Shown here piece by piece: positions 1 through 29,687 of a stretch of 29,687 nucleotides of DNA; position 1 is the stretch's first letter; each line of letters begins with the position of its first letter. This stretch comes from a virus. The DNA lies in the IMG/VR virus record IMGVR_UViG_3300032093_013413, positions 1 to 29,687 of that record; one strand, given 5' to 3'. The notes under the pieces were generated by a model. The model was not told where the DNA came from, searched no databases, and was given only the letters and a program-made list of their open reading frames with translations. The position numbers were made by a program, and so were the translations under genes.

Positions 1-76
1 ACGGGCACTTCCAGAGCCTCGGTCCGATTGTTTCCTTTGGTCGACCTACGGAAATTGCGACCTTAGGTCGGAGGTT

Positions 77-88
77 TTGTAACCAAAT
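77..88 (+). repeat. Candidate integrase arm-type site, copy 1
   Basis: The 12-mer TTGTAACCAAAT occurs here and again at 282-293, and 11 of its bases recur at 304-314. This copy lies left of the tRNA-fragment core, the other two lie right of it. Repeats of this length and spacing on either side of a core are what arm-type integrase-binding sites look like. The binding role is inferred. Confidence 0.5.
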
Positions 89-174
89 GTATCCCCGGAG
101 CTCCTTTTTTCGTTTCCCCATGGCACATTAGGTCGGAGCGGAAATGAAAAAACCTCGCGAAATGCGGGATTTCT

Positions 175-218
175 AGTACCCCCGAGAGGAATCGAACCTC
201 CGACCTACGGTTTAGGAA
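175..218 (-). other. Attachment-site core: 3' half of a tRNA-Arg(CCU) gene
   Basis: Read on the minus strand, this segment folds as the 3' half of a tRNA. It has a 7-nt anticodon loop TTCCTAA at 218-212 (U33, anticodon CCU, A37), then the 3' anticodon-stem strand ACCGT, a 5-nt variable loop AGGTC, a T-arm with stem GGAGG/CCTCT and loop TTCGATT, an acceptor strand CGGGGGT and discriminator A. The 5' half is absent: the bases just upstream (CAAAA) do not pair with ACCGT. A tRNA broken at the anticodon loop directly beside a tyrosine integrase is the classic mark of an att core. An intact tRNA-Arg(CCU) sharing these ~44 bases is expected at the other junction, or in the unoccupied host site. It is not a functional tRNA as it stands. 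Confidence 0.8.
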
Positions 219-281
219 TTTTGGTTTGCTTTTGGACCAAAGGTGTCGATTCCCCGAGGAAATTGGCCTTCTTGAAATTTG

Positions 282-293
282 TTGTAACCAAAT
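282..293 (+). repeat. Candidate integrase arm-type site, copy 2
   Basis: This is an exact second copy of TTGTAACCAAAT, in direct orientation, about 65 bases right of the att core and 20 bases before the integrase start codon. It could also affect integrase expression, since it falls where a promoter or operator would lie. Confidence 0.5.
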
Positions 294-303
294 TTCGAGG
301 AGT

Positions 304-314
304 TTGTAACCAAT
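304..314 (+). repeat. Candidate integrase arm-type site, copy 3, overlapping the integrase start
   Basis: The third copy, TTGTAACCAAT, runs into the integrase ATG (313-315), so an integrase bound here could block its own translation start region or promoter. The preceding bases AGTTTGTAAC (301-310) recur at 3176-3185, just before the broken integrase copy. Confidence 0.45.
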
Positions 315-1569
315 GTCCAAAGTTCTGCCGACCTACAGCCACTTCAAACCGCGCAACATCGGCTACGTTTTCTGGCGCGGAAAGCGCTTTTACTTCAACG
401 GCGCACCTTTCGGCAGCGAAGCGAGCCTAAAACTCTACCACGACTTCATCCGCATCAACTGCGGAACCAAGCGAGACAAGGCCAGCCCCGTGCTGATCGC
501 CAAGCCCCTTCGAGACGTAACGCTCGCCAAGCTGGCCGACATGTACCTGGAGCACATGTCCGAGCCCGGTCGCCTGGAAAAGGGCGAGCTCGACAAGCAC
601 CGCCGGATTCTGGAGATCGCAGTCGAACGCTACGGCACGCTGCTCGCCTCTGAGTTCGGCCCGGTCTACTTGGCCGACCTGCGCGACTATCTGGCGAGCA
701 ACGAGTTCATTCGCCAGTTCCGCAATCGCAAAGGCAAAGTCACCCGGACGATGCGCTACCGTTTAACCCGGACGACGATCAATCATCAGTTGGGAAACTT
801 TAAGCGGGTCTTCAAGTGGGCCGTCTCGCGCGAGATCATCTCGCCGGACCGGTTGACCGCACTCGCGACGGTTGGTGGGCTGCGTTATCAGAAGTCCGAA
901 GCCCGCGAGACCGCGCCGCGTCTTCCAGTCGATTGGGCCACGGTGCAAAAGGTTCTGCCTCACGTGACTCCAGTCGTCGCGGACATGATTCGGTTCCAGT
1001 GGCATACTGGCTGCCGGCCGCAGAACGTCTGTACCATCCGGCCGTGCGAGGTTGATACCTCTCAGGAGCCTTGGGTCTGGACGCCGACGCATCACAAAGC
1101 CAAGTACCGTGGGCATGATCTGGTCATCTTCCTCGGCCCGGCGGCTCAGGCGGTGCTCAAGCCCTACCTTGATCGGCCGTCGAAGCAGTACTGCTTTTCG
1201 CCCAAAGAGTCGGTGGCTCATCGCTACAAGACCGACCAGCCGCGGAAGAATCGCAAACCGAAGTCGGACCTGAAGCACATTCGGGATCATTACACGACGG
1301 ATACCTACCATCAGGCCGTCACCCACGGGATTGCCCAACAGGCGACGCCGCGAATTGACCAGCCCTACCGGGTCGCGAAATTCAGGGCGGCGGGTCTAAT
1401 CTACTGGACGCCACACCAGCTGCGGCACGCGAAGGCCCAGATGATTCGCGACCAGTTCGGCCTGGAGGCAGCTCAAGCCGTCCTCGGCCACAGCAGCCTG
1501 ACCGCAACGCAGATCTACGCAAAAAAGCGGCTGGACCTGGCGAAGGAACTGGCGGCGAAGTGTGGGTAG
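313..1569 (+). CDS. int: Tyrosine recombinase / phage integrase
   Basis: The 418-aa protein would catalyse site-specific recombination between attP and attB at the tRNA-Arg site. The C-terminal catalytic domain shows the full set of active-site residues: Arg235 in TGCRPQNV, Lys264 in the HHKAKYRG beta-hairpin, His368 and Arg371 in TPHQLRHA, His393 in LGHSS and the nucleophile Tyr402 in TQIYAKK. The N-terminal ~60 residues are basic and aromatic, as in arm-binding domains, followed by a SAM-like core-binding domain at about 70-190. An insertion of about 60 basic residues (295-358) separates the Lys hairpin from the HxxR box, longer than in many family members. The start chosen is ATG at 313, which overlaps repeat copy 3; no strong Shine-Dalgarno sequence is seen. 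The 5' end lies 95 bases from the tRNA fragment, which supports the att assignment. Confidence 0.93.
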   Translation: MSKVLPTYSHFKPRNIGYVFWRGKRFYFNGAPFGSEASLKLYHDFIRINCGTKRDKASPVLIAKPLRDVTLAKLADMYLEHMSEPGRLEKGELDKHRRILEIAVERYGTLLASEFGPVYLADLRDYLASNEFIRQFRNRKGKVTRTMRYRLTRTTINHQLGNFKRVFKWAVSREIISPDRLTALATVGGLRYQKSEARETAPRLPVDWATVQKVLPHVTPVVADMIRFQWHTGCRPQNVCTIRPCEVDTSQEPWVWTPTHHKAKYRGHDLVIFLGPAAQAVLKPYLDRPSKQYCFSPKESVAHRYKTDQPRKNRKPKSDLKHIRDHYTTDTYHQAVTHGIAQQATPRIDQPYRVAKFRAAGLIYWTPHQLRHAKAQMIRDQFGLEAAQAVLGHSSLTATQIYAKKRLDLAKELAAKCG

Positions 1570-1640: not shown

Positions 1641-2987
1641 CTAAATTTTGTCGGACTTCTGCAGATTGCATTTGCGGCAAAGAAGCTGGACGTTTTGGTC
1701 CGAGTTGCTGCCGCCTTTGGCGACCGGGACAATGTGATCGAATTCGAGGTAGTCAGTTGCTCCGCATTCGGCGCACTTGCCGCTGTAACGCTGCCAGACC
1801 CTTTGGCGCACTTCACGCGGGATATGGCGGTCTGGGGCTCCGGTGGAACGGCGAACCAAGGTTTGGTTGTTAAGTTGAAGCAAGGACTTAAACCGCTCAA
1901 AAAACAGAGGGTCTGGCTTCCTGCAGCGGAAACTGATGGTCGGTTTGTTCTTGACCGTTAAATTCAAGAGCCGATCCTGACCGTTCCAGCCGACAATTGC
2001 CCGATAAGTGATGCTCAACGGTTTAGTCTCGGACTCAAAAATGACCCGGGAGTCCGTCAGGGCTAAGTTGCCGTCGTGCAGGTCGTCTGTAAGGCCCGAC
2101 TTTAGGTTGCGCTGAATGTTGGCTTCACATCGTCCCCAGAAGAAAACAGACTCGCTTGGCTGTAAGTTCAAACCCGGCGGGGGCGGGACTTGGGGCGGAT
2201 TTCCACTGGAAATCATAGTCCTTTCTCTGAGAAGGCTGAGTTCGCTTCGGATGTAGTCTTTAAACATGGCACCAAAAGAGAAAGTCTGCATCAGCCATTT
2301 CAGATACCGCTCTTCCTCGGCGGTCACGACTCCATCTGACTTAACGTCCGCTAGCACATGTTCGGCGAAGGACTTTGCATGCGGAGTTACTGCCTCTAGC
2401 AACTCCTCGCGAGTCAGCCCCAGTGCGTCGGCGGAGGCTTGTAGGTTTTGCCAGAGCTTTTGGTCAAGGATGCCTGTTGAAGTCGCCTCAGCGAACAAGC
2501 CCCGTAAAATACCGATCCCCTGGCGTAAAGCGTTGCGGCGAGCAAACACCTTTACGGTTGAGCCAGTGAAACTGGCGACGCCCTGCAAAGCTTCCAGTTC
2601 GGATGCCGTCAGGACTCCGTCTTTGAGGGCTTCCGAGAGACATTCTGCAAATGCAAGCGAGGCGACTTCTTCGTTGAGTTGCTTCACTTCGTCTTGAGGT
2701 AAACGGAGCTTTTCAGCGATGACGCCGAGTAATTGGCGTTGATTCGGTTGGGGTAGCCCGTTCTCCCACAGTCGCTGCAGCATCAGCTGGTAGTATGCTT
2801 TTGTCGCGACCTTGAGATCAGTCGGATTGTATTCATGAGCAATCAACACCTCGCTCAGGTCAAAAGCCGACTTCTTGGTTTGAAAACCGTGTGCGATAGC
2901 CTGCTGTAGCAGCCTCACGCGTTGCTCCTGACCTGGGTTGGTGAATTCGGTCCAAGCGCGTTTGAGAAGCGATTTGACTTTGGACAT
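1641..2987 (-). CDS. TerB-like / PH-like / HNH endonuclease fusion protein
   Basis: This 448-aa protein has three visible parts. Residues ~1-255 are helical and carry two TerB/calcium-loop-like acidic segments, LKDGVLTASE near 121-130 and VKSDGVVTAEE near 215-225. After a Pro-rich hinge (264-272), residues ~280-370 resemble a bacterial PH (YokE/GRAM-like) fold, with the signature LTDSRVIF at 310-317. Residues 388-448 form a clear HNH nuclease: CAEC (405-408), FDHIVPVAKGG (416-426) with His418, Asn432, and CRKCN (437-441), so the zinc cysteines and catalytic His are intact. HNH proteins cut DNA; the PH-like part could target membrane or ligand. It is the only defence-region gene on the minus strand and lies between the integrase and an integrase remnant, with lower GC than the phage half. 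A role as a defence effector is inferred; a homing-type or packaging HNH is less likely given the other domains. Confidence 0.75.
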   Translation of the reverse strand: MSKVKSLLKRAWTEFTNPGQEQRVRLLQQAIAHGFQTKKSAFDLSEVLIAHEYNPTDLKVATKAYYQLMLQRLWENGLPQPNQRQLLGVIAEKLRLPQDEVKQLNEEVASLAFAECLSEALKDGVLTASELEALQGVASFTGSTVKVFARRNALRQGIGILRGLFAEATSTGILDQKLWQNLQASADALGLTREELLEAVTPHAKSFAEHVLADVKSDGVVTAEEERYLKWLMQTFSFGAMFKDYIRSELSLLRERTMISSGNPPQVPPPPGLNLQPSESVFFWGRCEANIQRNLKSGLTDDLHDGNLALTDSRVIFESETKPLSITYRAIVGWNGQDRLLNLTVKNKPTISFRCRKPDPLFFERFKSLLQLNNQTLVRRSTGAPDRHIPREVRQRVWQRYSGKCAECGATDYLEFDHIVPVAKGGSNSDQNVQLLCRKCNLQKSDKI

Positions 2988-3203
2988 CGGTGGGATCCCA
3001 GAACCTTAGGTGGAAGGAAGGGGTAAACTCGAGCCGCGAACGGCTATCGCCCCATCTTAGCGAGGATTTCTTGCGGGAAAACAGTCGTGAGCGGCTTGCG
3101 GCTTGGGCCGGCCACCTTTCGGGCCAAATTCGTGATGAGGCTGTAAAAAGGATGCCAGTGGTAGGCAAAATTCCCAGTTTGTAACATTTCAGGCTGCGCG
3201 TTC
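2988..3203. other. Gene-poor spacer upstream of the HNH gene
   Basis: No convincing gene is seen. It should hold the promoter of the leftward HNH gene, but I cannot point to clear -35/-10 boxes, and the sequence before its ATG has no strong Shine-Dalgarno match. A 64-codon rightward open frame (2990-3184) has a GTG start without a ribosome site and resembles nothing I know. AGTTTGTAAC at 3176-3185 is an exact copy of the 10 bases just upstream of the intact integrase start (301-310). Confidence 0.5.
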
Positions 3204-3370
3204 CATACGCCGCACCAGCTGCGGCACGCCTAGGCCCAGATGATTCGTGGCACTACGGGCTGGAGGCAGCTCAGGCCGTCCTCGGCCACAAGCAGCCTGC
3301 CCGCGACGCAGATCTACGCTAAGAAGCGGCTCGACTTGGCCAAAGAGCTGGCGGCGAAATGTGGGTAGGA
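3204..3370 (+). pseudogene. Broken 3' end of a second tyrosine integrase gene
   Basis: This segment aligns end to end with 1406-1570, the last ~55 codons of the intact integrase, at roughly 85% identity by eye. It retains the CACCAGCTGCGGCAC box (HxxR motif), the LGH region, the ATCTACGC of the catalytic Tyr and the final GTGGGTAG. It is inactivated: the Lys codon after RHA is a TAG stop (3231-3233), one base is missing around 3250-3260, and one is added in CCACAAGC near 3288-3291. Weaker similarity continues ~50 bases past the stop. The rest of the gene is missing, although the AGTTTGTAAC that precedes the intact start is found 19 bases before this fragment. Most differences fall where third positions would be, so it probably derives from a related element, not a recent duplication. 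Confidence 0.85.
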
Positions 3371-3589
3371 TTGACCTGCCCTGTCCAAATTGCCGGGGCG
3401 GGAGTCTCAGGTGAGCATTGCCCTCTCGCTGTGTTCCCGCAGCGGCTTACTTTCGCCAATCAAACGTGATGGGATCCCGTTCAAAAACTTGGGAAAAATT
3501 GCAGAAGAATGACGCTGCTTAACTGAACTGCTATCTTGTTGACCTAAACACGGTGGTAGGTCCAAAGGGACGGTGATTGGAAGGGAAAG
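3371..3589. other. Intergenic region upstream of the Mrr-type gene
   Basis: No gene is seen. The first ~50 bases resemble the sequence after the intact integrase stop (1571-1620), so they belong to the integrase-remnant duplication. The rest should carry the promoter for the rightward defence genes; it includes the inverted repeat at 3541-3562. A Shine-Dalgarno-like GGAAGG (3579-3584) sits five bases before the ATG at 3590. Confidence 0.5.
3541..3562. promoter_or_regulatory. Candidate operator: GACCTA-N10-TAGGTC inverted repeat
   Basis: A perfect 6-bp inverted repeat, GACCTA (3541-3546) and TAGGTC (3557-3562), with a 10-nt spacer lies 28 bases before the start of the Mrr-type gene. The half-site is the same hexamer that is repeated around the att core. 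The position suits a regulator-binding site, but no regulator gene is visible in the window. Confidence 0.35.
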
Positions 3590-4660
3590 ATGTCAAAGAC
3601 TCAACAACGGGTTTTCTTGGTTCGTGCAGGTGGGGATGGCGAGGACGAGCAGTACGCCATCGAAAATGGCGTTGCGATTCTTGGTTTCAGGGAGGTTCCC
3701 TCGCTTGCCGGGATTGGTGACTACCAGGGTATTTTTGATTTGGTAAAGGCCACCTTCCCCAATGCCAAAACCCGGGCAATCGGGAACTACTCTGGGCAGC
3801 TTTGGGCATTTGCTCTGGCAATACAAGTCGGTGACATTGTTGTCCTGCCGAGAAAGTTAACAAACCAAGTAGCACTGGGGCGGGTGACGGGCAACTACCA
3901 ATACGAAAAAGTTGGGGATTCGTTTCGGCATGTTCGGGCTGTTGAGTGGATTCGACCGGAGATACCGAGGTCGCTCTTCAAGCAAGACCTTTTGTACTCA
4001 ATCGGTGCATTTATGACGGTCTGCAACATCAAACGAAACGACGCCGAAAATCGAATCCTCGCGATGCTTAACGGAAAGTCAGATCCAGGCTTTCAAGGGG
4101 GCGTCGGTCCAGCCGGGCCGATTCGAGTCGATGAAGACGATGCTGAGGAGGTGGCTCACGACTTGGCTTTGGCTGCGAACGATCGAATTGTGGCTCACAT
4201 CCAAAGCCGTTTTGTTGGACATAAGTTGGCAGAATTAGTCGAAGCAATCCTCAAGGCAGATGGCTGGATCACCAAGTTATCCCCGCCTGGACCTGACGGA
4301 GGTGTTGATATTCTTGGTGGCCGGGGTCCTTTGGGGCTCGACGCCCCACGCCTTTGCGTGCAAGTTAAATCTCAAACTTCACCAGCGGAGGTCACTATCT
4401 ATCGAACACTTCAAGGTGCGATGCAATCTTTCAAGGCTGAGCAAGGGCTCCTTGTTTGTTGGGGCGGCTTTAACCGGGTTGTTCTGAGTGAATCAAAGCA
4501 GGCTCATTTCACAATTCGCCTGTGGGACAGCCGCGACGTCGTCGAAGCGATCTATCGGACTTATGAACGCTTGCCGCCCGAGATTCAAGCTGAGTTGCCG
4601 CTGAAAAAGGTTTGGATGCTAGTTGATGAACATGGGGGGGCCGACTTGGAGGAAGAGTAA
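3590..4660 (+). CDS. Mrr-type restriction endonuclease with N-terminal EVE/PUA-like domain
   Basis: The 356-aa protein has an N-terminal domain (about 5-150) with GDIVVLPRK and VALGRVTGNYQY, typical of the EVE/PUA-like beta-barrels that read modified bases and are found at the N-termini of restriction-system proteins. The C-terminal part (about 195-325) is an Mrr_cat-type PD-(D/E)XK nuclease: FVGHKLAELVEAILKADGW helix, GPDGGVDIL with catalytic Asp240, then LCVQVKSQ with the Q258-x-K260 form of the motif that marks the Mrr family. Such proteins are usually modification-dependent (type IV) DNases that cut DNA carrying modified bases, a role inferred here from domain pairing. It stands upstream of the type I system but is separated from it by ~325 bases, so it probably has its own promoter. 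ATG at 3590 is supported by GGAAGG upstream. Confidence 0.85.
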   Translation: MSKTQQRVFLVRAGGDGEDEQYAIENGVAILGFREVPSLAGIGDYQGIFDLVKATFPNAKTRAIGNYSGQLWAFALAIQVGDIVVLPRKLTNQVALGRVTGNYQYEKVGDSFRHVRAVEWIRPEIPRSLFKQDLLYSIGAFMTVCNIKRNDAENRILAMLNGKSDPGFQGGVGPAGPIRVDEDDAEEVAHDLALAANDRIVAHIQSRFVGHKLAELVEAILKADGWITKLSPPGPDGGVDILGGRGPLGLDAPRLCVQVKSQTSPAEVTIYRTLQGAMQSFKAEQGLLVCWGGFNRVVLSESKQAHFTIRLWDSRDVVEAIYRTYERLPPEIQAELPLKKVWMLVDEHGGADLEEE

Positions 4661-4985
4661 AGAGGGTTGGGATTCCCATCTAGGTGGTTAAAACATGAGA
4701 GGCGATGGACGATCACCCTATGCGTATGGCGGCAAAGACGATGAAAAATTATCCAATTGCACTCAAGGAATGGGAGGCCGAGTGCCTCGCTGTTCAATGC
4801 AACACGTCTAGAAAACGCACTGCCCGTTGTTGCATCTGGCTTGCCGTTATTTGAATGAAAAGCTGTCGCTTGTTCACGCGGACGGACTTGGACAAGTTGC
4901 TTACAAGGCTGGCACGCTAGTTTAACGAAAATTAAAGACCATCGAGGCCGAAGTAGAGTTGGACGACTTTCGAGGAAGAAACACA
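4661..4985. other. 325-bp gap between the Mrr gene and hsdR
   Basis: No recognisable gene. One 44-codon plus-strand frame (ATG 4720 to TGA 4854, cysteine-rich near its end) has no convincing ribosome site and I do not recognise it. The last part (4921-4985) is AT-richer and probably holds the hsdRSM promoter and leader. A TTG at 4959 could open hsdR nine codons early, but the ATG at 4986 has a better ribosome site. Confidence 0.4.
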
Positions 4986-7394
4986 ATGGCCAAGAATGAA
5001 GCCGAGACACGCTATGAGCTGATCGACCCTGTCTTGCGGGACAAGGGTTATCGCATGCCCTACGTTCGGCTCGAAACGCCTGCGCCAGTGGAGCCCACAG
5101 GCCCCAAGGGTCGTCGTCGCGCTGGGCCTGGCAAGATGGACTATTTGCTTTGCGTCGAGGTTCCCAACGGCACGACGCCGTTACCCGTGGCCATTCTCGA
5201 AGCGAAGAAAGAGGACGAAGACCCACTCAAAGGGATGCAACAGGCCAAGGACTACGCCGAGTGCAAACGTTTCGACGCCAAGTACATTTTCTCTACCAAC
5301 GGTCATCGTTACGCCAAGTTCAATAAATTCACCGGCGAGCACACTGGACCATTCGCATTCACCGACTTTCCCGACCATCAGCGTTTAACGGATTGCTACC
5401 ATCGACACACCGGTATTAAGCTCGATGACCCATCCTCGCTGCTACTTTTTCAGCCTGACAGTCCCGCCTATCCCGATTCTCGCTACTATCAGGACGCGGC
5501 CATTCGAGCCGCCTTCGAAAAGATACTCAAATGCGAAGCAGATGGCGAAGCTCCGCGAGTGCTCCTTTCGCTGGCGACCGGATCAGGTAAGACAATCATC
5601 GCTGCCAACCTGCTGTGGCGACTCAACGAAGCGGAACGGCTGCCGAAACCCGCTCTGTTCCTTTGCGACCGCGACGAATTGCGTGAGCAAGCCTATACCA
5701 AACTCAAAGCGGTTTTTGGCGACAACGCTCGGCTCGTCAAGACAGAAAAAGGCGACAACGCGGCTAAGAATGCTCGCATCCACATCGCCACCTATCAAAC
5801 GCTCGGCCTAGACGATGAATCCACCAACTTTGCTAGTTTCCTGACCGAGCATTACCCACCCGATGCTTTCAGCGTCATCGTGATCGACGAATGTCATCGT
5901 TCGGCCTGGGGCAAATGGTCGGTCATTCTCGAACGCAATCCGTCTGCCATCCACATCGGACTGACCGCGACCCCTCGCCAACTCCGCGAAGCGAAAGACA
6001 AGACCGACGAGGACGCCGAAATCACCGCCAACAATCTCAAATACTTCGGCGAGCCAGTTTACGAATACACCCTCATTCAAGCCCAGGAAGACGGCTACCT
6101 CGCCGCTTGCGAAATTGTCAAACGTAAACCGACCATTGACGCTCGCGTTTTTACCCGCGCGGAAGTCCTCGCCGCTCGGCCTACCAACATCAAGACCGGG
6201 CAGCCAATCACCGAGGACGACCTGACCAAAAACGAGTACACCGGCAAGGACTTTGACGACGAACTGTTCATCGACATGCGCACGCCTGCCATGTGTGAAG
6301 ACCTGTTCCAGCTCCTTTGTCAGAACGGTGGCCCCGAGCAAAAGGTAATCATCTTCTGCACCCGCGAGATTCATGCCGACCGGGTGGCCATTCAGATGAA
6401 CAATTTGTACGTTCGCTGGTGCCGGGCCAACAACCGTGAACCGAAAGACCACTATGCCTTCAAGTGCATGGGGGGCGTCAACAACGGAGCAGACATGATC
6501 GAGCCGATGAGAGGCTCTGGCGAACGCGCCTTCATTGCCTGCACCGTCGATTTGCTCGAAGCCGGCGTGGACATCGAACGGCTCAACGCAGTCGTTTTCT
6601 TCCGCTACCTCAAGAGTGCCATTAAGTTCTATCAGATGGTCGGTCGCGGCACCCGAATCCACGAGGAGACACAAAAGTACAAGTTCTGGCTGTACGACTA
6701 CACAGGCGTCACCGACCTATTCGGCACCGACTTCATCACCAGCCCGCCTCGACCGCGCGGGCCTGGCGGCGGTGGCGATGATGACGACGGCCCTGGTGGA
6801 GATGGGCCTGATGGCCCGGATGGGCCGCCCCCTGTACCTGAAATTCCCGGCGGCACGCTGATCACGCCGCAAGGGCGATTTATTCTGGGTAGTCGCGATG
6901 GGCGGGCCGTTCCTATTCCCGTAGATGAATATCGTCGCGAGATGATCAAGCGGGTGTTGAGCGAGGCTCACAACTTGGACGACTTCCGCCAACTGTGGAT
7001 CGAATCCCCGAAGCGTCGGCGGCTGATCGATCATCTATTGGGCGACAATTTCAGTCCCGAATTGCTCCGCGACATCGAGCAGATGACTGAATTCGACACC
7101 TACGATCTTTTCGCCCACTACGGTTACCGCGCCCGAGCCTTGAAGCGGCCAGAGCGCAAGGGGATTTATTTGGCGGACAACCTCGATTGGTTCGACGGGA
7201 TGGATACTAGGGCGGCCGCGGTGCTGCGCGGCGTGGGGCATCAGTTCGAGCTTGGCGGCACGGAGGCGTTGGAGACACCTGCCTTGTGGGATGTGCCGGA
7301 GATCAAGTCTGTCGGCGGTCTCGATGCCCTCCGTACTCTTGGCTCCCCGGCCGCAGTAATGTTGGATGCTAAGGGGAGGTTGTTCGCAGCATGA
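4986..7394 (+). CDS. hsdR: Type I restriction enzyme R subunit (nuclease and ATP-dependent translocase)
   Basis: The 802-aa protein is the motor and nuclease of a type I restriction complex. An N-terminal PD-(D/E)XK nuclease (HSDR_N) shows Asp52 in GKMDYLL and Glu72-x-Lys74 in ILEAKKE. The helicase core follows: Walker A in ATGSGKT (about 198-204), the DECH box in VIVIDECHRS (297-306), motif III GLTATP (325-330), then motifs V and VI in LLEAGVDIE (523-531) and YQMVGRGTR (549-557). A low-complexity Gly/Asp/Pro linker (about 588-622) leads to an EcoEI-type C-terminal domain that contacts HsdM. The ATG at 4986 follows GAGGAAG at a good distance; a TTG at 4959 is in frame but poorer. The stop overlaps the hsdS start (ATGA, 7391-7394), so the two are translationally coupled. 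All key motifs are intact, so it is probably active. Confidence 0.95.
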   Translation: MAKNEAETRYELIDPVLRDKGYRMPYVRLETPAPVEPTGPKGRRRAGPGKMDYLLCVEVPNGTTPLPVAILEAKKEDEDPLKGMQQAKDYAECKRFDAKYIFSTNGHRYAKFNKFTGEHTGPFAFTDFPDHQRLTDCYHRHTGIKLDDPSSLLLFQPDSPAYPDSRYYQDAAIRAAFEKILKCEADGEAPRVLLSLATGSGKTIIAANLLWRLNEAERLPKPALFLCDRDELREQAYTKLKAVFGDNARLVKTEKGDNAAKNARIHIATYQTLGLDDESTNFASFLTEHYPPDAFSVIVIDECHRSAWGKWSVILERNPSAIHIGLTATPRQLREAKDKTDEDAEITANNLKYFGEPVYEYTLIQAQEDGYLAACEIVKRKPTIDARVFTRAEVLAARPTNIKTGQPITEDDLTKNEYTGKDFDDELFIDMRTPAMCEDLFQLLCQNGGPEQKVIIFCTREIHADRVAIQMNNLYVRWCRANNREPKDHYAFKCMGGVNNGADMIEPMRGSGERAFIACTVDLLEAGVDIERLNAVVFFRYLKSAIKFYQMVGRGTRIHEETQKYKFWLYDYTGVTDLFGTDFITSPPRPRGPGGGGDDDDGPGGDGPDGPDGPPPVPEIPGGTLITPQGRFILGSRDGRAVPIPVDEYRREMIKRVLSEAHNLDDFRQLWIESPKRRRLIDHLLGDNFSPELLRDIEQMTEFDTYDLFAHYGYRARALKRPERKGIYLADNLDWFDGMDTRAAAVLRGVGHQFELGGTEALETPALWDVPEIKSVGGLDALRTLGSPAAVMLDAKGRLFAA

Positions 7395-8638
7395 GCAATC
7401 TTGAGGTAGAAGTCGAGAAGTCCGCAGCAAGATGGCGAGTGAGGCCTTTGAGAGATGCAATTACGCCAATACGCGGCGTTACTTTCCCCTCGGGCGAGGC
7501 AAGGCCGTCGCCTTTCGAGGGCTCGGTAGCTTGCTTAACTACCAGTGCAGTTCAGTCCGAAGTCGTCTGGGAGAGTCGAAGATTCATTCCGGCCAAATGC
7601 GTGAAAGATCCAAGTCGCTTCCTTGCGTTTGGTGATTTGCTGGTGTCGACGGCCAATAGCAAAGCACTTGTGGGGAAGTCATGTCTAGTACGCGAATTGC
7701 CTTACAAATGTACTTTTGGAGCTTTTGTGACTGTCTTCCGGCCGAAGGATGGTTTTGACCCGGGCTATCTCAGTTTGTTTATGCGGTCAAAACAGGTCAT
7801 GGATTGTTGCTATGAATTGTCATCCAATACAACCAACATTTCAAACCTGTCGATTGATGATTTACTCTCAAAGAAATTTCCGTTTCCTTCGTTCAGCGAA
7901 CAAAGGTCAATTGCTAACCGACTATTCAACGAAATCCATCAGTTAGAGCACGCACGCGAATCCGCGAGGAAGCAACTCGCGGAACTCGACCTTCTGCCGC
8001 AGAAGCTGCTGGGCCAAGTCTTCTCCGAACGTTGGCCTACTGTGCGGCTTGGGGAATTGTTGCATGGTATTGAGACGGGGCGAAGCCTTCAAACAACAGA
8101 ACAAATCGCTCGTGATGATGAGTTGGGTGTGATCAAAGTCAGCGCCATGACGTGGGGAGAATTTCGTCCGAGAGAAGCAAAGTCAATTGAAGCAGACTAT
8201 CAACCCGATGAGCATCATCGTATTCGTAAAGGTGACGTGTTAATCTCTCGAGCGAATACCGTTGAACTTGTGGGTGCGGTTGTTCGCGTCGATCGTGACT
8301 ATCCCAATCGCCTACTATCTGACAAGTCATTGCGATTGGTCTTGGATGAAAGCAAATGCGATCCAGACTACGTGGTTCAAGCGTTACGCTGGCCAGAAGC
8401 ACGATCGCACATCGAAGAGAATGCAACAGGTACTAGCAATTCGATGCGAAACATTTCGCAAGATACAATCCGCGAAACGCCATTGCGACTACCAGAACTG
8501 CAAGAGCAAAGCCGGATCGCCTCGACGCTGAAGAGTTTCCATGTCGAGCTAGGACGCGCGCGGACGGCATCAAATGCTCAACTTGTGGAACTTGACCTCC
8601 TACCGCAAAGACTCCTCGCTCAAGTATTCGGGAACTGA
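7391..8638 (+). CDS. hsdS: Type I restriction-modification specificity subunit
   Basis: The 415-aa protein selects the bipartite DNA target for both methylation and restriction. It shows the two-repeat HsdS plan. The first target-recognition domain (about 15-168) ends in PFPSFSEQRSIA and a long helical spacer (169-211) closing with ELDLLPQKLLGQVF. The second recognition domain (about 215-369) ends in RLPELQEQSRIA and a spacer (370-415) closing with ELDLLPQRLLAQVF. The two spacers are near-identical in protein but diverged in DNA, so they are old repeats and not a recent duplication. The gene overlaps hsdR by four bases and is followed by hsdM after five. The recognition sequence cannot be read from the protein. 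Confidence 0.93.
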   Translation: MSNLEVEVEKSAARWRVRPLRDAITPIRGVTFPSGEARPSPFEGSVACLTTSAVQSEVVWESRRFIPAKCVKDPSRFLAFGDLLVSTANSKALVGKSCLVRELPYKCTFGAFVTVFRPKDGFDPGYLSLFMRSKQVMDCCYELSSNTTNISNLSIDDLLSKKFPFPSFSEQRSIANRLFNEIHQLEHARESARKQLAELDLLPQKLLGQVFSERWPTVRLGELLHGIETGRSLQTTEQIARDDELGVIKVSAMTWGEFRPREAKSIEADYQPDEHHRIRKGDVLISRANTVELVGAVVRVDRDYPNRLLSDKSLRLVLDESKCDPDYVVQALRWPEARSHIEENATGTSNSMRNISQDTIRETPLRLPELQEQSRIASTLKSFHVELGRARTASNAQLVELDLLPQRLLAQVFGN

Positions 8639-8643
8639 AACGT

Positions 8644-10566
8644 ATGGCCAAGACCAAAAAGGAACGGAAACCCAAGGCCCCCAAGGCTATCGCCGGGACG
8701 CGGTCGCTATCGGCCTTCGTCAAGTCGATTTGCGATATTCTGCGAAGGTCGAACTGCGCCAGTGCCTTGCAGTACGTGCCCGAACTGACCTGGATTCTCT
8801 TTCTCCGCATTCTCGACGAGCAAGAGCGACGCGACCGCGAGGCGGCAGATGCGGTGGGCGAGTCGTTTACGCCCGCACTCCGCGCTCCGTTCCGCTGGCA
8901 GGATTGGGCCGCTCCCTATAGGGACGACTTGACCCATCCGCGAACCGACGAGGGCAAGCCGTACGGCTGGAAACGGCAGGAACTCTTCTCCAAAGGGGAT
9001 GGCAAGCTCTTTGACTTTATTAACCGCGAACTGTTGCCCCACCTGCATTCGCTCGACATCGATCCAAAGACCAAGCAACCGAACCCGACCGCTACCCGCA
9101 AACAGCGTGTCATCGGCCGAATCATGACGGCCGTTGAACGGGTGCGGGTGGACAGTGAAACGAATCTCCGCGATATCCTTGACAAGGTCGATGAAATTAG
9201 CATCGATCACGTGGACGACACCCACTTTTTCACCCTGTCGCAGGTGTACGAGGACTTGTTATTGAAGATGGGGGAGAAGAACTCTGACGGTGGGCAGTTC
9301 TTCACGCCGCGAGAGGTGATTCGGGCGATGGTGCATACGGTCAACCCGACGCTGGGCAAGACGGTGTACGATCCCTGCTGCGGCACCGGCGGCTTTCTGG
9401 CCGTAGCCTACGAACATATCGCTCGAAACCTGGGTAGCGCTCCGGCCAGCACTGATATCGACAAACTCAAGCATGACACGTTTTTCGGACGTGAGAAGGA
9501 AAACCTCGTCTTCCCGATCGCCCTGGCGAATCTGGTGCTGCACGGGATCGACCAGCCGAACCTGTGGCATGGCAACACCTTGACCAAACGGGCCAGCTAC
9601 AGTGGGTTGTTTGACAAGGCTCCCAAGACGTTTGACGTGATTCTGACCAATCCACCCTTCGGAGGCAAGGAAGGAAAGGACGCGCAGAAGAACTATGCGT
9701 ATGCTACCAGCAGCACTCAAGTCCTATTTGTTCAAGACATTCTCGGCGAACTGGCCGCCGAGGGGCGGTGTGCGATTGTTCTCGACGATGGTTTTCTGTT
9801 CCGCAAGGACGAGGCCGCATTCGTGGAGACGAAGCGCAAGTTGGTGGACGAATGCGATTTATGGGCCATCGTCAGTCTACCGGGTGGCGTGTTCGTTGGT
9901 GCTGGCGCGGCAGTGAAGACAAATTTACTTTTCTTCACGAAGGGGAAGAAGACTACCAAAATCTGGTACTACGACCTGACGCATGTTAAGGTCGGCAAGA
10001 AGTCACCGATGACGCTGGCCCACTTCGGTTTTGGCAAGAATGGCGAAGTACTCGACGACGCCGATCTACCGGCCTCGTTGATTGACGCTTGGAAAGAAGA
10101 CGAGACGAATGCCGGCCAACCATTCCCCTCCTATGCTCGGTTGCGGAAAACACGCGGCACCAAGGCGAGTGAAAGCCGTTATTCCTGGACGGTCGATTTC
10201 GCTGCCCGCCGCAAACAAGCCCGCGAGGACATGAAGCCTCATCAGGAAGAAGTGGAGCGGGCTAAAGCCGAGATTTTGGTACTAAAAGAAGAGCTTAAAT
10301 CGCTCAAGTCAAACGGAATTGATCAGGCAGAAAAAGAGAGTTTGGAAGCTCGTATTCGAGAACAAGAAAAGGCAGCTCGTGAGGTGCAATCAAAGGTCGA
10401 TGCGATCGATGCGGCTGTCTTTGATCTCAAGGCTGTGAACCCGAATGTCGTTGTTAAGCTGGATGAACGGACACCTGAAGAGGTTATTCGCAGTATCGAG
10501 GAGCAAGGAAAATTAGTCGCTGAAGCGTTATCGATATTGCGAAAACTGATCAGCGAAAAGAATTGA
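8644..10566 (+). CDS. hsdM: Type I restriction-modification N6-adenine methyltransferase subunit
   Basis: The 640-aa protein methylates adenine in the type I target and forms the core complex with HsdS. Residues ~20-200 are the helical HsdM_N domain. The catalytic N6_Mtase domain begins at GGQFFTPREV (217-226), with the SAM-binding motif I DPCCGTGGF (243-251) and catalytic motif IV NPPF (336-339). The last ~130 residues are highly charged and predicted coiled coil (EEVERAKAEIL onward), followed by a helical tail, which makes the protein longer than the ~500-aa average and is typical of a subset of HsdM proteins that contact HsdS through an extended C-terminus. It is last in the operon, five bases after hsdS. 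The order R-S-M differs from the common R-M-S and M-S-R orders. Confidence 0.95.
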   Translation: MAKTKKERKPKAPKAIAGTRSLSAFVKSICDILRRSNCASALQYVPELTWILFLRILDEQERRDREAADAVGESFTPALRAPFRWQDWAAPYRDDLTHPRTDEGKPYGWKRQELFSKGDGKLFDFINRELLPHLHSLDIDPKTKQPNPTATRKQRVIGRIMTAVERVRVDSETNLRDILDKVDEISIDHVDDTHFFTLSQVYEDLLLKMGEKNSDGGQFFTPREVIRAMVHTVNPTLGKTVYDPCCGTGGFLAVAYEHIARNLGSAPASTDIDKLKHDTFFGREKENLVFPIALANLVLHGIDQPNLWHGNTLTKRASYSGLFDKAPKTFDVILTNPPFGGKEGKDAQKNYAYATSSTQVLFVQDILGELAAEGRCAIVLDDGFLFRKDEAAFVETKRKLVDECDLWAIVSLPGGVFVGAGAAVKTNLLFFTKGKKTTKIWYYDLTHVKVGKKSPMTLAHFGFGKNGEVLDDADLPASLIDAWKEDETNAGQPFPSYARLRKTRGTKASESRYSWTVDFAARRKQAREDMKPHQEEVERAKAEILVLKEELKSLKSNGIDQAEKESLEARIREQEKAAREVQSKVDAIDAAVFDLKAVNPNVVVKLDERTPEEVIRSIEEQGKLVAEALSILRKLISEKN

Positions 10567-10591
10567 ACAATATTGAAAAGGCGAACAATAA

Positions 10592-10620
10592 TTGACAACG
10601 ATCCATTGAGTATTTACGGT
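10592..10620 (+). promoter_or_regulatory. Candidate promoter for the deaminase gene unit
   Basis: A perfect -35 box TTGACA (10592-10597) is followed after 17 bases by a weak -10 box TACGGT (10615-10620; three of six consensus bases). It lies just after hsdM and before the 80-aa gene, so it could drive the deaminase unit separately from hsdRSM. The weak -10 box keeps confidence low. Confidence 0.3.
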
Positions 10621-10701
10621 GCACAAACCGGTAAACCAAACCTCATTGTTTAAAGAGCCTGTTTCTGCGTGAGTTGTTTGGCAGAAGTCGAAGGACGTGA
10701 G

Positions 10702-10944
10702 ATGGCGCTAGACTTTAAAACCTTCAAAGAGACTGTGTACCGCGCGAATCTCCGCCGCGATGCCATTGCTATTCAGGACAATGCCAAATCCTACATGAGA
10801 TTTGCAAGTGTGCAGTATTTGTCCTCCTTTCAGACCTGGCTCAGTTTGGTCTTCTTGGTCGATTCAATGGATTCAAAGCACAAAGCCTCGGGGAAACTAG
10901 GCCACAATTTAATCTTGATTTTCAAGGAGCGGCGCAAAATATGA
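10702..10944 (+). CDS. Small protein of unknown function upstream of the anti-phage deaminase
   Basis: This is an 80-aa, mildly basic protein with a KTFKETVYRANLRRD-type helical start, an aromatic and hydrophobic middle (FQTWLSLVFLVDS) that is too short and polar to be sure of a membrane segment, and a basic end FKERRKI. I do not recognise a family. The ATG at 10702 has a good ribosome site AAGGA (10691-10695); an in-frame GTG at 10669 would add 11 residues but has no ribosome site. It ends 34 bases before the deaminase start. In Vibrio the DcdV/AvcD deaminase is held in check by a partner encoded immediately upstream (DifV/AvcI), so a partner or inhibitor role is conceivable from position only. 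Confidence 0.5.
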   Translation: MALDFKTFKETVYRANLRRDAIAIQDNAKSYMRFASVQYLSSFQTWLSLVFLVDSMDSKHKASGKLGHNLILIFKERRKI

Positions 10945-10978
10945 CTTCCGAGCCCGTTAAAACATGCAAGGTAGACTC

Positions 10979-12580
10979 ATGACCGCAGCAAGCATACTGG
11001 AACACGGTCTTAAAGATATTGTCATTGGTCTGGTTGCGCCCATTGGAACCGATCTCGAACCGTTTTGCCAAGCGTTGGCAAACTCATTTCGACGATTGGG
11101 TTATGCATCGCACCAAGTTCGCCTCAGCGGTTTGTTGGATGAAGTCAAAGAACTAATTGGACTTGATCTTAACTATTCCAATGAGGAGGCGCGTTACGAC
11201 AAATACATGAAGGCCGGTAGTAGTTTTAGGACTAAATTGGGGCGGGGTGATGCTCTGTCCATGCTCGCCGTCGGTGCGATTCGGGAACTTCGGAGCCAGT
11301 CAACAGAGGCGAAGCATGCATTTATTTTGCGGTCTCTAAAGCATCCTGATGAAGTGACGAGTCTTCGTAATATCTACGGCCCAGCATTTTTACTGTTTTC
11401 TCTAGCTTCCAGTCGGACTGCTAGGGTAAAGCACCTAGCAAGTCGCATTTGTCGGACTCAACAGGAGTTTGATTCGACAAAGTTTCTGCCAAATGCAGAG
11501 CAGTTGATCAATCGTGACCAACAAGAGCCTGATGATCTAATGGGCCAGAAGGTTGGTAAAGTGTTTCCTTTGGCAGACTTTTTCATTGATGTTGACCACG
11601 GGATGGAAGTCGCGACTAACCGACTGGTTGAGTTGTTTCTCGGGAACGTCTTTATAACGCCGACTGCTAGCGAACAGGGCATGTTTTTGGCTCATGCTTC
11701 CGCTTGGCGATCTGCCTCGTTGCAGCGTCAAGTCGGCGCGGTGATTGCCACTCAAGATGGGAATGTGGTCTGCGTCGGAACGAACGAGGTGCCAAAGACC
11801 GGAGGAGGCCTTTATTGGGAAGGTGACGAGCCTGACGGTCGAGATTTCAAGCGACGCGACGAAATCAATGACGACATGAAGCATCGAATGTTTGTGGAAG
11901 TCGTTCAGCGAATGCTTGATAGCGGGATGGCTTACGCCAAAAATTCCGATGGCAGTCAACACGAGCTCGCCGGTTTCGGCACTAGCGATGCACAGAAAGT
12001 TGCAGCATGGCTCATTGAAAAACGGTACATGGACAACACAAGGATCATGGGAGTGATCGAGTTTGGTCGATGTGTTCACGCCGAGATGGCGGCCCTTATG
12101 GATGCAGCGAGGCGAGGCGCTGCGGTTGATGGGTGTTTTCTGTACTCGACGACTTTTCCATGCCACGAATGCGCACGTCACATCGTAGCTGCTGGCATTC
12201 GAAAAGTTTACTACATTGAGCCATACCCGAAAAGCCTCGTCAACGAACTCTATCCTGATTCAGTTCGCATTGAAGATATTGAATGCGGGAACGTTGTTTC
12301 CTTTGTCCCTTTTGTTGGCGTTGCGCCTCGACGCTATCAAGACCTGTTCAAAGTGATTGATGTCGACCGAAAGAAACTGGTGATGCATGCCAAAGAGTGG
12401 AAGCCTGACATTGCGAATCCAAGGCTTGGGGAGTACCCTAGTCGAACGCAAAGGATTAACATGGCGGCAGAGAAGGCGGCCTTTGAACAGTTCAGGTGGG
12501 ATCTCGAAAGGGTAAAAAGTGGAAGCAATCAAGCTCAAGAAGGGGTGGTTGGATCGGCAAATGCGCCAAGTTCGCCTTGA
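10979..12580 (+). CDS. Anti-phage dCTP/dCMP deaminase (AvcD/DcdV-like): P-loop kinase-like plus zinc deaminase
   Basis: The 533-aa protein pairs an N-terminal P-loop kinase-like domain (about 10-225) with a C-terminal cytidine-deaminase fold (about 235-420). The P-loop reads GLVAPIGTDLE (17-27), lacking the usual Lys, and the domain also has LKHPDEVTSLRNIYG (120-134), both familiar from this family. The deaminase part has the zinc and proton-shuttle motif CVHAEMAAL (His367, Glu369) and PCHEC (Cys395, Cys398), so it should be catalytically competent. Known relatives deplete dCTP/dCMP during phage infection and so starve phage DNA synthesis. ATG at 10979 is preferred over 10964 because AAGG lies just upstream at normal spacing. 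It follows the 80-aa gene and overlaps the next one, so the three probably form one operon. Confidence 0.88.
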   Translation: MTAASILEHGLKDIVIGLVAPIGTDLEPFCQALANSFRRLGYASHQVRLSGLLDEVKELIGLDLNYSNEEARYDKYMKAGSSFRTKLGRGDALSMLAVGAIRELRSQSTEAKHAFILRSLKHPDEVTSLRNIYGPAFLLFSLASSRTARVKHLASRICRTQQEFDSTKFLPNAEQLINRDQQEPDDLMGQKVGKVFPLADFFIDVDHGMEVATNRLVELFLGNVFITPTASEQGMFLAHASAWRSASLQRQVGAVIATQDGNVVCVGTNEVPKTGGGLYWEGDEPDGRDFKRRDEINDDMKHRMFVEVVQRMLDSGMAYAKNSDGSQHELAGFGTSDAQKVAAWLIEKRYMDNTRIMGVIEFGRCVHAEMAALMDAARRGAAVDGCFLYSTTFPCHECARHIVAAGIRKVYYIEPYPKSLVNELYPDSVRIEDIECGNVVSFVPFVGVAPRRYQDLFKVIDVDRKKLVMHAKEWKPDIANPRLGEYPSRTQRINMAAEKAAFEQFRWDLERVKSGSNQAQEGVVGSANAPSSP

Positions 12581-27086: not shown

Positions 27087-29222
27087 TTACGCGATGCCTT
27101 TGCTCTTCACGCCGGCTCGCCACTCCTGCTTGGCCACGCCAAAGTCGAAGTAACCCCGCATCGCGATGCCGAGCGTGTCGAAGTCGGCTTCGGCCTCTTC
27201 GATCACGGGAGTTTGCTGGCCGTTGAGAAACACGACTTCAATCGTCGCCAAGTCGTTCGGGTCGGCGAGCAGGTACCACGCCGTCTGTGAACCACCGAAC
27301 GCTGCATTTCCGACATAGGCTGACACCTCGGGGCGGTAGCGTCCGGCGAAGACGTTGATCGCCATGTTCTTGCCGGCCGAACCGGTGATCAGTCCGGTCG
27401 AGTTGAACAGTTCGCGGGCCGTGACGCTGTTGCTGGAGGCGACCAGCAGGATTGCCGGCGTCAGGCCGAGCGGATTCCCCTTGGGATCGACCTGGTCCAT
27501 GAACATCTGCTCGGCGGTCTGCAGCGAGGAACTCTGCAGGTTCGTAGCCGCTCCCTCGAAGTAGTTCTTGCGGGGCGTGGTGAAGAAGGTCGAGTTTGTG
27601 TTGAACTCGTTCCAGAAGACCTCGTTCAGCTCCAGGGCTGCTCCCCGGCCAATCTTCTGGGCCCGGGTGCTGAGCGCCCCGAGGTCGTCGTTGATGATGT
27701 CCTGTCGCGTGAGCGAGAGAATCTTGCCGTAGGTTTCCGCCTTGTTGGAGAAAGATTCCTCCTCAAAGCCGGCGTGCTTCAGCCGCCCATCGGGACCGAC
27801 CCGCTCGAACTTGGCATCTTCAATCAGCCGGAAGCGGGTCACGGTTTTGAAGTCGTTGACCTGTCCAATTGCGGCAATCGAACGCCAGACGCTTTCCACC
27901 GCATTGAAGCTCGACAGGAGCAGCTTGTTGCCGGTATTGGAGAGGATGCCCGAAATCTCGTGCATCGTGAACGCGGCCCGGAGGAAGTCGCGAGAGACTT
28001 GCCGGATCGGCCCGGGGGGAACCGGAAACCCGGCGGCGCTGGCCGCCATAATCAGCAGCCGTTGCAGACCCACGCCTGTGCGGTACTGTTTGTCGGCCGC
28101 GTCGAGCGTGCGGACATCGAACCGCTGCTCGCGGTCGGGCAGCTGGGCGCTCTTGGCCACGGCACACTCCAGAACGCTGAGGTTGCCGGAGAAGTCCTGG
28201 GCGACGTGAATCGCCGGACTCGTGGGCCGCGAGGCGCGAAGGGCTTCGAGTTCGGTCTTCTCCGCGCTCCAGCCTTCGCGGATGGCGTGAGCTTCGAGGC
28301 TGGCGACTTCCTTGCCGTCGATCCGGGCGGAGGAAATGCCGTACTTCGCGCAGACCAGCTTGATGCTGCTGGTGCGGTCGGCTTCGGCTGCCTGAATCTC
28401 GCGGACCTGTTTTTGAATGGACTGGGCATCGACTGCTGCTGCGACCGGCTTGGGGGACTTGGCTGGTTCCTCGTCCGCGTCGTCCGAGTCATCGTCCGGC
28501 AGGTCGGCTCCGGTTGCCTCGAAGGCGGACTGGAGGATGTCGAGCTGCGTGCCGGTCAGGTTCTGGGCGTCAAATCCGTTTGCACTGAGCCACTGGGAAA
28601 ATTCCATCGAACGATGCTCCTGGGGAGAGAGAGAGGCGGCAATCGAGGCAGTGGTGTTGTCATCGGCTCCGAGTGCCGCGAAAGAGATTTCTCGGAGAGA
28701 TGTCCTGCGGGCGACGTAGACCGGGCCCGAGACGTTGCGTCCATTCACCTTGACCGTGTTGCCACGATCGACGAATTCGAGTTGCTGGACCTCCGCCCCG
28801 ATGCTCGCCTGCCACGGGAAGCCGTTGTCGCCCAGGGCAGTCACCTCGGAGGCCGCCGCGCTGATGCCGCTGACTTTTCCCGAGACCTTGATCGTCTGGG
28901 CCGTGACGGAGATCTTCTCGCTGTGTCCGACGATTTGAGCCGCGTCGTGCGAATAGAGAATCGGCCGGGTCTGCGAGCGGACTGTCATGCCCGCGAGGTC
29001 AACGACTACGGGCCAGTAGTAACCGGCGACGGTCATCTGACCGCCTGTGTAGGCCGTCATCGAGAAAGCGCGGACCTTCGGCCGCTGGCCTTCGGCAGAA
29101 GGATCGGCAGCGGTGAGCTGCAGATCGGCTATCTGGCTGGTGAGCGTAATTCGCTGGGGACCGTTGGCAAAAAGCCGCTGCTTACGCGGCTGCCTGGTCC
29201 GTTGTCGCGTCTTCCGTGGCAT
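27087..29222 (-). CDS. Fused prohead protease and major capsid protein
   Basis: The 711-aa protein combines two functions usually encoded separately. Residues ~45-200 look like an S78-type prohead protease: PILYSHD (His92), VGHSEKI, and WQASIGAE with Ser140 as candidate nucleophile, followed by SLREISFAALGA. An acidic, Pro/Ala linker (about 238-265, DDDSDDADEE) and helical region (to about 390) would be the scaffold-like delta domain. Residues ~390-711 resemble Mu gpT-type major head subunits, with NEFNTNSTFFTTPRKNYFEG, AILLVASSNSVTARELFNS and DFDTLGIAMRGYFDFGVA. The enzyme presumably cuts itself from the capsid part during maturation. The ATG at 29222 overlaps the portal end by 41 bases. An internal Met206 (MEFSQWL) may be an alternative start. 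Confidence 0.85.
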   Translation of the reverse strand: MPRKTRQRTRQPRKQRLFANGPQRITLTSQIADLQLTAADPSAEGQRPKVRAFSMTAYTGGQMTVAGYYWPVVVDLAGMTVRSQTRPILYSHDAAQIVGHSEKISVTAQTIKVSGKVSGISAAASEVTALGDNGFPWQASIGAEVQQLEFVDRGNTVKVNGRNVSGPVYVARRTSLREISFAALGADDNTTASIAASLSPQEHRSMEFSQWLSANGFDAQNLTGTQLDILQSAFEATGADLPDDDSDDADEEPAKSPKPVAAAVDAQSIQKQVREIQAAEADRTSSIKLVCAKYGISSARIDGKEVASLEAHAIREGWSAEKTELEALRASRPTSPAIHVAQDFSGNLSVLECAVAKSAQLPDREQRFDVRTLDAADKQYRTGVGLQRLLIMAASAAGFPVPPGPIRQVSRDFLRAAFTMHEISGILSNTGNKLLLSSFNAVESVWRSIAAIGQVNDFKTVTRFRLIEDAKFERVGPDGRLKHAGFEEESFSNKAETYGKILSLTRQDIINDDLGALSTRAQKIGRGAALELNEVFWNEFNTNSTFFTTPRKNYFEGAATNLQSSSLQTAEQMFMDQVDPKGNPLGLTPAILLVASSNSVTARELFNSTGLITGSAGKNMAINVFAGRYRPEVSAYVGNAAFGGSQTAWYLLADPNDLATIEVVFLNGQQTPVIEEAEADFDTLGIAMRGYFDFGVAKQEWRAGVKSKGIA

Positions 29223-29687
29223 TAGACGGTTGAGTTGCCTGCGAAGGGGTCTCAGGGCTCAGGTTCAGCTGCTGCATCAGTTCCAGTTCTCTGGCTCGCT
29301 GTCGCAGCTGCTGCTCCCAGTCTTTACCTTGCCGCGCGTATTCTTCGGCGAGGGTCGTCGTGTGATTGCGGAGGCGGGTTTCCTGGGCACTCGCTTCCTT
29401 GGTCGGGTCCACATGCTCGGCTCCGTCCCAGAACCACTGGCGATCGCTCGCCCAGTCGCCGTAGGGACCAGCCGGAAGCAGACCCGGAACCAGCGAGGCT
29501 TCGTCGAGCCACGCTTGAAAGATCTTGCTCAGGACAATCGACTCAAGCGCGTCCTGCTCGACCCGAATCGATTTGAAGTAGACCTGATGGTCCAGACGCC
29601 CGGAGGCGTAGTTGTAAGATGCCGAGTTGCAAGCGGCGACGTTGAACGGCATGTTCAAGCAGCGTGCGATTTCATTGATCAACTCTC
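29182..29687 (-). CDS. Phage portal protein, lambda family (5' part beyond the window)
   Basis: Only the last ~168 residues are visible; the frame is open through the right edge. The segment RCLNMPFNVAACNSASYNYASGRL matches the lambda-type portal pattern (a 'NYSSARxAL'-like box) and QWFWDGAEHVDPTKEASAQ matches the Trp-Asp-Pro-Lys box just before the C-terminus. The portal forms the ring at the capsid vertex through which DNA enters and leaves. The tail is Gln/Thr/Ala-rich. It overlaps the capsid fusion start by 41 bases. The apparent TTG start at 29682 is only where the window ends, not the real start. Confidence 0.85.
   Translation of the reverse strand, partial: ELINEIARCLNMPFNVAACNSASYNYASGRLDHQVYFKSIRVEQDALESIVLSKIFQAWLDEASLVPGLLPAGPYGDWASDRQWFWDGAEHVDPTKEASAQETRLRNHTTTLAEEYARQGKDWEQQLRQRARELELMQQLNLSPETPSQATQPSNATEDATTDQAAA

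Follow-up and report, generated by a model that had tools for sequence, protein, structure and literature searches.

A tRNA-Arg(CCU) fragment flanked by direct repeats on both sides is a candidate attP in an uncultured temperate phage

The whole viral record IMGVR_UViG_3300032093_013413, a linear stretch of 29,687 bases that starts at position 1, was analysed (hereafter, the window). We propose that the segment from about 40 to 315 is the attP of a temperate tailed phage, and that this phage was sampled in a non-integrated form (excised, replicating or packaged). We estimate the probability of this reading at roughly two in three, which is about twice that of the rival explanations together. 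The proposal is drawn from several observations. Three copies of a 10-mer are confined to this stretch, where they bracket a tRNA fragment that neighbours an integrase gene (int). A second arm module is shared by the two sides and an inverted copy of the core is present, neither of which is expected of host DNA. The features are as follows.

40-88, plus strand: distal arm segment, with a gapped local alignment to 245-293 (shuffle p 0.01)
42-51, plus strand: CGACCTACGG, identical to core 201-210, half-site-like; forms a palindrome or hairpin with 60-69
60-76, plus strand: inverted near-copy (16/17) of core bases 195-211 (shuffle p < 0.001)
77-88, plus strand: TTGTAACCAAAT, distal-arm repeat, putative Int arm site
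128-138, minus strand: further core half-site-like copy, which reads TTAGGTCGGAG on the plus strand
148-174, minus strand: hairpin followed by a T run, just past the tRNA 3' end (weak, not above shuffles)
175-218, minus strand: candidate attP core, the 3' part of tRNA-Arg(CCU) with the 5' half absent (direct reading, blastn, no intact tRNA)
245-293, plus strand: int-side arm segment matching 40-88 (local alignment)
282-293, plus strand: TTGTAACCAAAT, int-side arm repeat, putative Int arm site
304-315, plus strand: TTGTAACCAATG, third repeat
313-1569, plus strand: tyrosine integrase of 418 amino acids, with an N-terminal beta-beta-beta-alpha domain at residues 7-49 (Pfam Phage_integrase, PHROG integrase, models and fold matches)

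The core was read directly on the minus strand. Its 44 bases run from the anticodon loop to just beyond the discriminator base: the anticodon loop is TTCCTAA, the stem strand ACCGT, the T-arm GGAGG-TTCGATT-CCTCT and the acceptor part CGGGGGT, and A73 follows. By blastn, the core matched annotated tRNA-Arg genes with 83-93% identity over about 30-40 bases. The direct reading and blastn agree with the original prediction of a tRNA-fragment core at 175-218, and at the sequence level the identity of the core as the 3' part of a tRNA-Arg is clear. ARAGORN detected no intact tRNA in the window, and an Rfam search of 1-340 gave nothing at the gathering threshold, the matches all having E > 1. It had been suggested that an intact tRNA-Arg(CCU) sharing the 44-base core should be sought. 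The exact core had no copy in viral_contigs or genome_contigs, and a degenerate tRNA-Arg(CCU) pattern had no match in viral_contigs.

The tRNA fragment sits just upstream of the integrase gene at 313-1569, and the tRNA is oriented away from int. It had also been claimed that the 5' half of the tRNA is missing, as attP requires. The half is indeed missing; however, with the tRNA in this orientation, a one-armed junction at the int side would equally lack it, and its absence therefore does not favour attP. The hairpin at 148-174, a weak signal not above shuffles, is a possible terminator for the restored tRNA.

On both strands of the record, the 10-mer TTGTAACCAA occurs only at 77, 282 and 304. 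Repeats on both sides of the core, about 90 and 65-90 bases away, had been predicted; we measured gaps to the core of 86 bases on the left and of 63 and 85 bases on the right. The repeats at 77 and 282 are spaced by 205 bases, with the T-loop 110 and 95 bases from their centres. Thus, repeated arm-type motifs flank the core on both sides, and these are putative Int-binding arm sites. A one-armed junction would have such motifs on the phage side only, whereas here the copy at 77-88 lies across the core. The third repeat overlaps the start of the integrase gene, where its TTGTAACCA fills the spacer between an SD-like GAGGAG (297-302) and the ATG of int (313-315).

Several controls were applied to these repeats. 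When 1-340 was subjected to dinucleotide shuffling, a direct 12-mer repeat appeared in 0.8% of the shuffles and a 10-mer occurring three times in 0.5%. A sliding control with equal geometry found a 12-mer common across the gap at 3 of 1,451 positions (about 0.2%). Across the whole record, only two pairs of exact 12-mers repeat directly within 250 bases, and 77/282 is one of them. A plain alignment of the left side with the right side was weaker (p 0.036); the gapped alignment gave p 0.01. As this alignment shows, the segments 40-88 and 245-293 share, in the same order, GTCGA, GGAAATTG, CCTT and TTGTAACCAAAT. Outside the record, 44 viral contigs with paired TTGTAACCAA were judged to be unrelated, since none of them has a related integrase or a nearby tRNA T-loop. 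Four viral contigs (L010, L023, L025 and L044) are dense in TTGTAACCAA, with up to ten or more copies that are often 21-30 bases apart, and have no related integrase nearby.

The distal arm also contains copies of parts of the core. The inverted near-copy at 60-76 directly adjoins the arm repeat, and the palindrome that it forms with CGACCTACGG has a spacer of 8-9 bases. These copies, together with TTAGGTCGGAG, the gapped repeat 40-88/245-293 and the position of the third repeat in the SD-ATG spacer, are additional to what was originally predicted. On the right side, a tRNA-like inverted match at 241-253 was marginal (p 0.02-0.07) and is not claimed.

The integrase gene lies next to the core. 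An AlphaFold2 model of its product, built with seven relatives, had a mean pLDDT of 79.7, and the best Foldseek matches of this model were full-length lambda integrase structures. The first 50 residues were modelled as a beta-beta-beta-alpha domain. The full-length fold match and this domain argue for the attP reading. When the N-domain was taken alone, Foldseek gave no match at E < 0.001, and the fold matches were weak: an AP2 domain (Z 4.8), lambda Int 1-64 on P'2 DNA (Z 3.1) and a P4-like integrase on attP (Z 2.9). The modelled domain has the topology of arm-binding domains; this is suggestive, and such a match is not proof of arm binding. Residues 131-150 (window 703-762) are predicted to form a beta-hairpin insert in the core-binding domain, which is absent from the seven aligned relatives. 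A search for the integrase in phages (50,697 records), genome_contigs and plasmids gave no match.

Published attP sites with the same layout also favour the attP reading (PMC8074189, PMC11963761). The attP of Oenococcus phages with IntF or IntB carries 10-base direct repeats on both arms, which have been proposed to bind the N-domain of the integrase (PMC8074189). As in the window, its core is the 3' end of a tRNA; however, the repeat sequence differs, the copies are more numerous (2 and 4) and the Oenococcus core excludes the anticodon loop (PMC8074189). ICEMlSymR7A, which uses IntS, has a 283-bp attP with five arm motifs beside int, and integrase bound to this attP represses int (PMC11963761). 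The site resembles that of the window in being compact, in its arm motifs and in its position beside int, whereas ICEMlSymR7A is a conjugative element, its motif is TGKTGGTATC and it has been tested experimentally (PMC11963761). The position of the third repeat suggests that a similar autoregulation may operate in the window. Lambda shares the full-length fold of the integrase and the arms on both sides of the core, but the sequence identity of the integrases is only about 13% and the lambda core is not a tRNA. Sites for IHF, Xis or Fis were not identified in the window.

Seven related integrases were aligned, and the upstream DNA was compared for six of them. In five relatives, a tRNA T-loop lies 58-165 bases before int and the tRNA is oriented toward int, unlike that of the window. 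The closest parallel is L085 (IMGVR_UViG_3300024052_000091), whose integrase is of the same family. There, TTYTGACCCTTTTG is repeated at 10704 and 10909, again 205 bases apart around a tRNA fragment, and the core has nearly the same position: the repeat centres lie about 112 and 93 bases from the T-loop, compared with 110 and 95 in the window. The repeat sequence and the tRNA are different, and the L085 tRNA is oriented toward int. Because the distal side of L085 carries a tail tape-measure gene, this site has phage DNA on both sides, and the attP reading of the window draws on the same layout. The att geometry is kept between the window and L085, a comparison that rests on two cases. Between 10690 and 10821, the distal arm of L085 contains a 12-base inverted near-copy of its tRNA fragment (p 0.03), which is weaker than the copy at 60-76 of the window. 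A convincing two-sided direct repeat pair was not found at the integrases of L062, L081 and L084. The capsid relatives share structural genes with the window, and no integrase was found in them.

The original prediction, that the site is either an attP or a tandem junction, is supported, though not proven, by the two-sided repeats, the lambda-type integrase and the L085 layout, and the double-armed geometry fits these two better than a one-armed junction. The tandem case, a joint of two elements integrated one after the other at one tRNA gene, seems unlikely to us. If the same phage were present twice, the joint would equal attP; otherwise, the distal arm of a related element would lie on the left. 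The joint has a sequence identical to that of free attP, and therefore sequence cannot separate the two. For example, in SGI1 arrays, a published case, free attP and the tandem joint were told apart only by pulsed-field gels (PMC2297512). Elements may also occur side by side in this integrase group: at 10934-13656 of L084, a single tRNA 3' fragment lies between two integrase genes that are divergent and belong to different subfamilies, and this is perhaps a locus of two adjacent elements. However, a second integrase or a second element was not seen in the record, and two integrated copies are needed where one free copy would suffice.

At the right end of the record, a gene is interrupted: the open frame 29182-29685 has 99% identity over 167 amino acids with an ORF of the relative L065, and in the relative L067 the ORF at the equivalent position is a PHROG portal protein, followed by terminase. 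Because this gene is cut and because of the portal and terminase order in L067, we consider the record to be a fragment without terminase and early genes. To the left of the core there are only 174 bases, in which no gene was seen, and a search for a neighbouring contig with the left-end 20-mer found none. The site could also be the one-armed, int-side junction of a single prophage. In that case, host sequence beyond the 3' end of the tRNA would make up 1-174, and the repeat at 77-88 would be due to chance or be the remnant of an older element. We regard this as improbable, to much the same degree as the tandem joint. Such a junction is equally expected to leave an int-side tRNA fragment that lacks the 5' half, phage genes are not seen left of the core, and a possible terminator hairpin (148-174) follows the tRNA 3' end. 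Moreover, L083 has an intact tRNA-Val, as an attL would have, so that this integrase group is recorded as integrated copies as well. Nevertheless, the repeat at 77 (about 0.2-0.8% by chance), the second module and the inverted core copy (p < 0.001) would all have to be coincidences. These three features alone argue against host DNA on the left. Against the attP reading, we counted the 174 bases without a gene, the p value of 0.036, the lack of a repeat pair in L062, L081 and L084, the tRNA orientation and the weak N-domain matches.

That the repeats serve as operators through which a regulator acts on int, or as sites for an RDF, rather than as Int arm sites, and hence are uninformative on attP, is very unlikely: one copy does lie in the SD-ATG spacer of int, but the copies flank the core, with the T-loop about 110 and 95 bases away, L085 repeats the geometry with a different sequence, and one domain of the integrase has the topology of arm-binding domains.

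If the attP reading is right, the site may work as follows. The core at 175-218 would be a copy of the 3' part of a host tRNA-Arg(CCU) gene. The N-domain of Int would hold both arms at the TTGTAACCAA repeats and fold the DNA. The core would also be where strands are exchanged, probably at the anticodon loop or close to it. On integration, the 5' half of the host tRNA would be joined to the core and the distal (left) arm, and the tRNA would be restored. The tRNA fragment would remain on the int side, adjoining host DNA. Int bound at the third repeat, in the SD-ATG spacer, may then lower its own synthesis. It is conceivable, though doubtful, that attP in this integrase family carries a decoy or accessory core site for Int, which would control direction or allow inversion between the two copies. 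In that event, the accessory site would be the 60-76 copy with the CGACCTACGG palindrome in the distal arm.

A defence cluster adjoins int at 1641-12577 of the window. It encodes an HNH protein, an Mrr-like nuclease (PADLOC PDC-S02), a type I RM operon (hsdR, hsdS and hsdM) and an anti-phage dCTP deaminase (415.9 bits against an NCBI cut-off of 400). Beyond the cluster, structural genes lie on the other strand. The relative phage G002 (L063 213-3365; 88% capsid identity) has a different type I restriction enzyme, with an HsdR of 1050 amino acids, in the same slot, which follows its last tail gene. This slot is a possible site for defence cargo.

The finding would give an attP and integrase pair aimed at tRNA-Arg(CCU). 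The phage is uncultured, and none of 50,697 phage records matches its integrase. In metagenome records, arm repeats on both flanks of a tRNA core may serve as a simple sequence sign by which free or tandem phage DNA could be distinguished from a single integrated prophage. Because the integrase adjoins the defence cluster, the att site bears on how that cargo moves.
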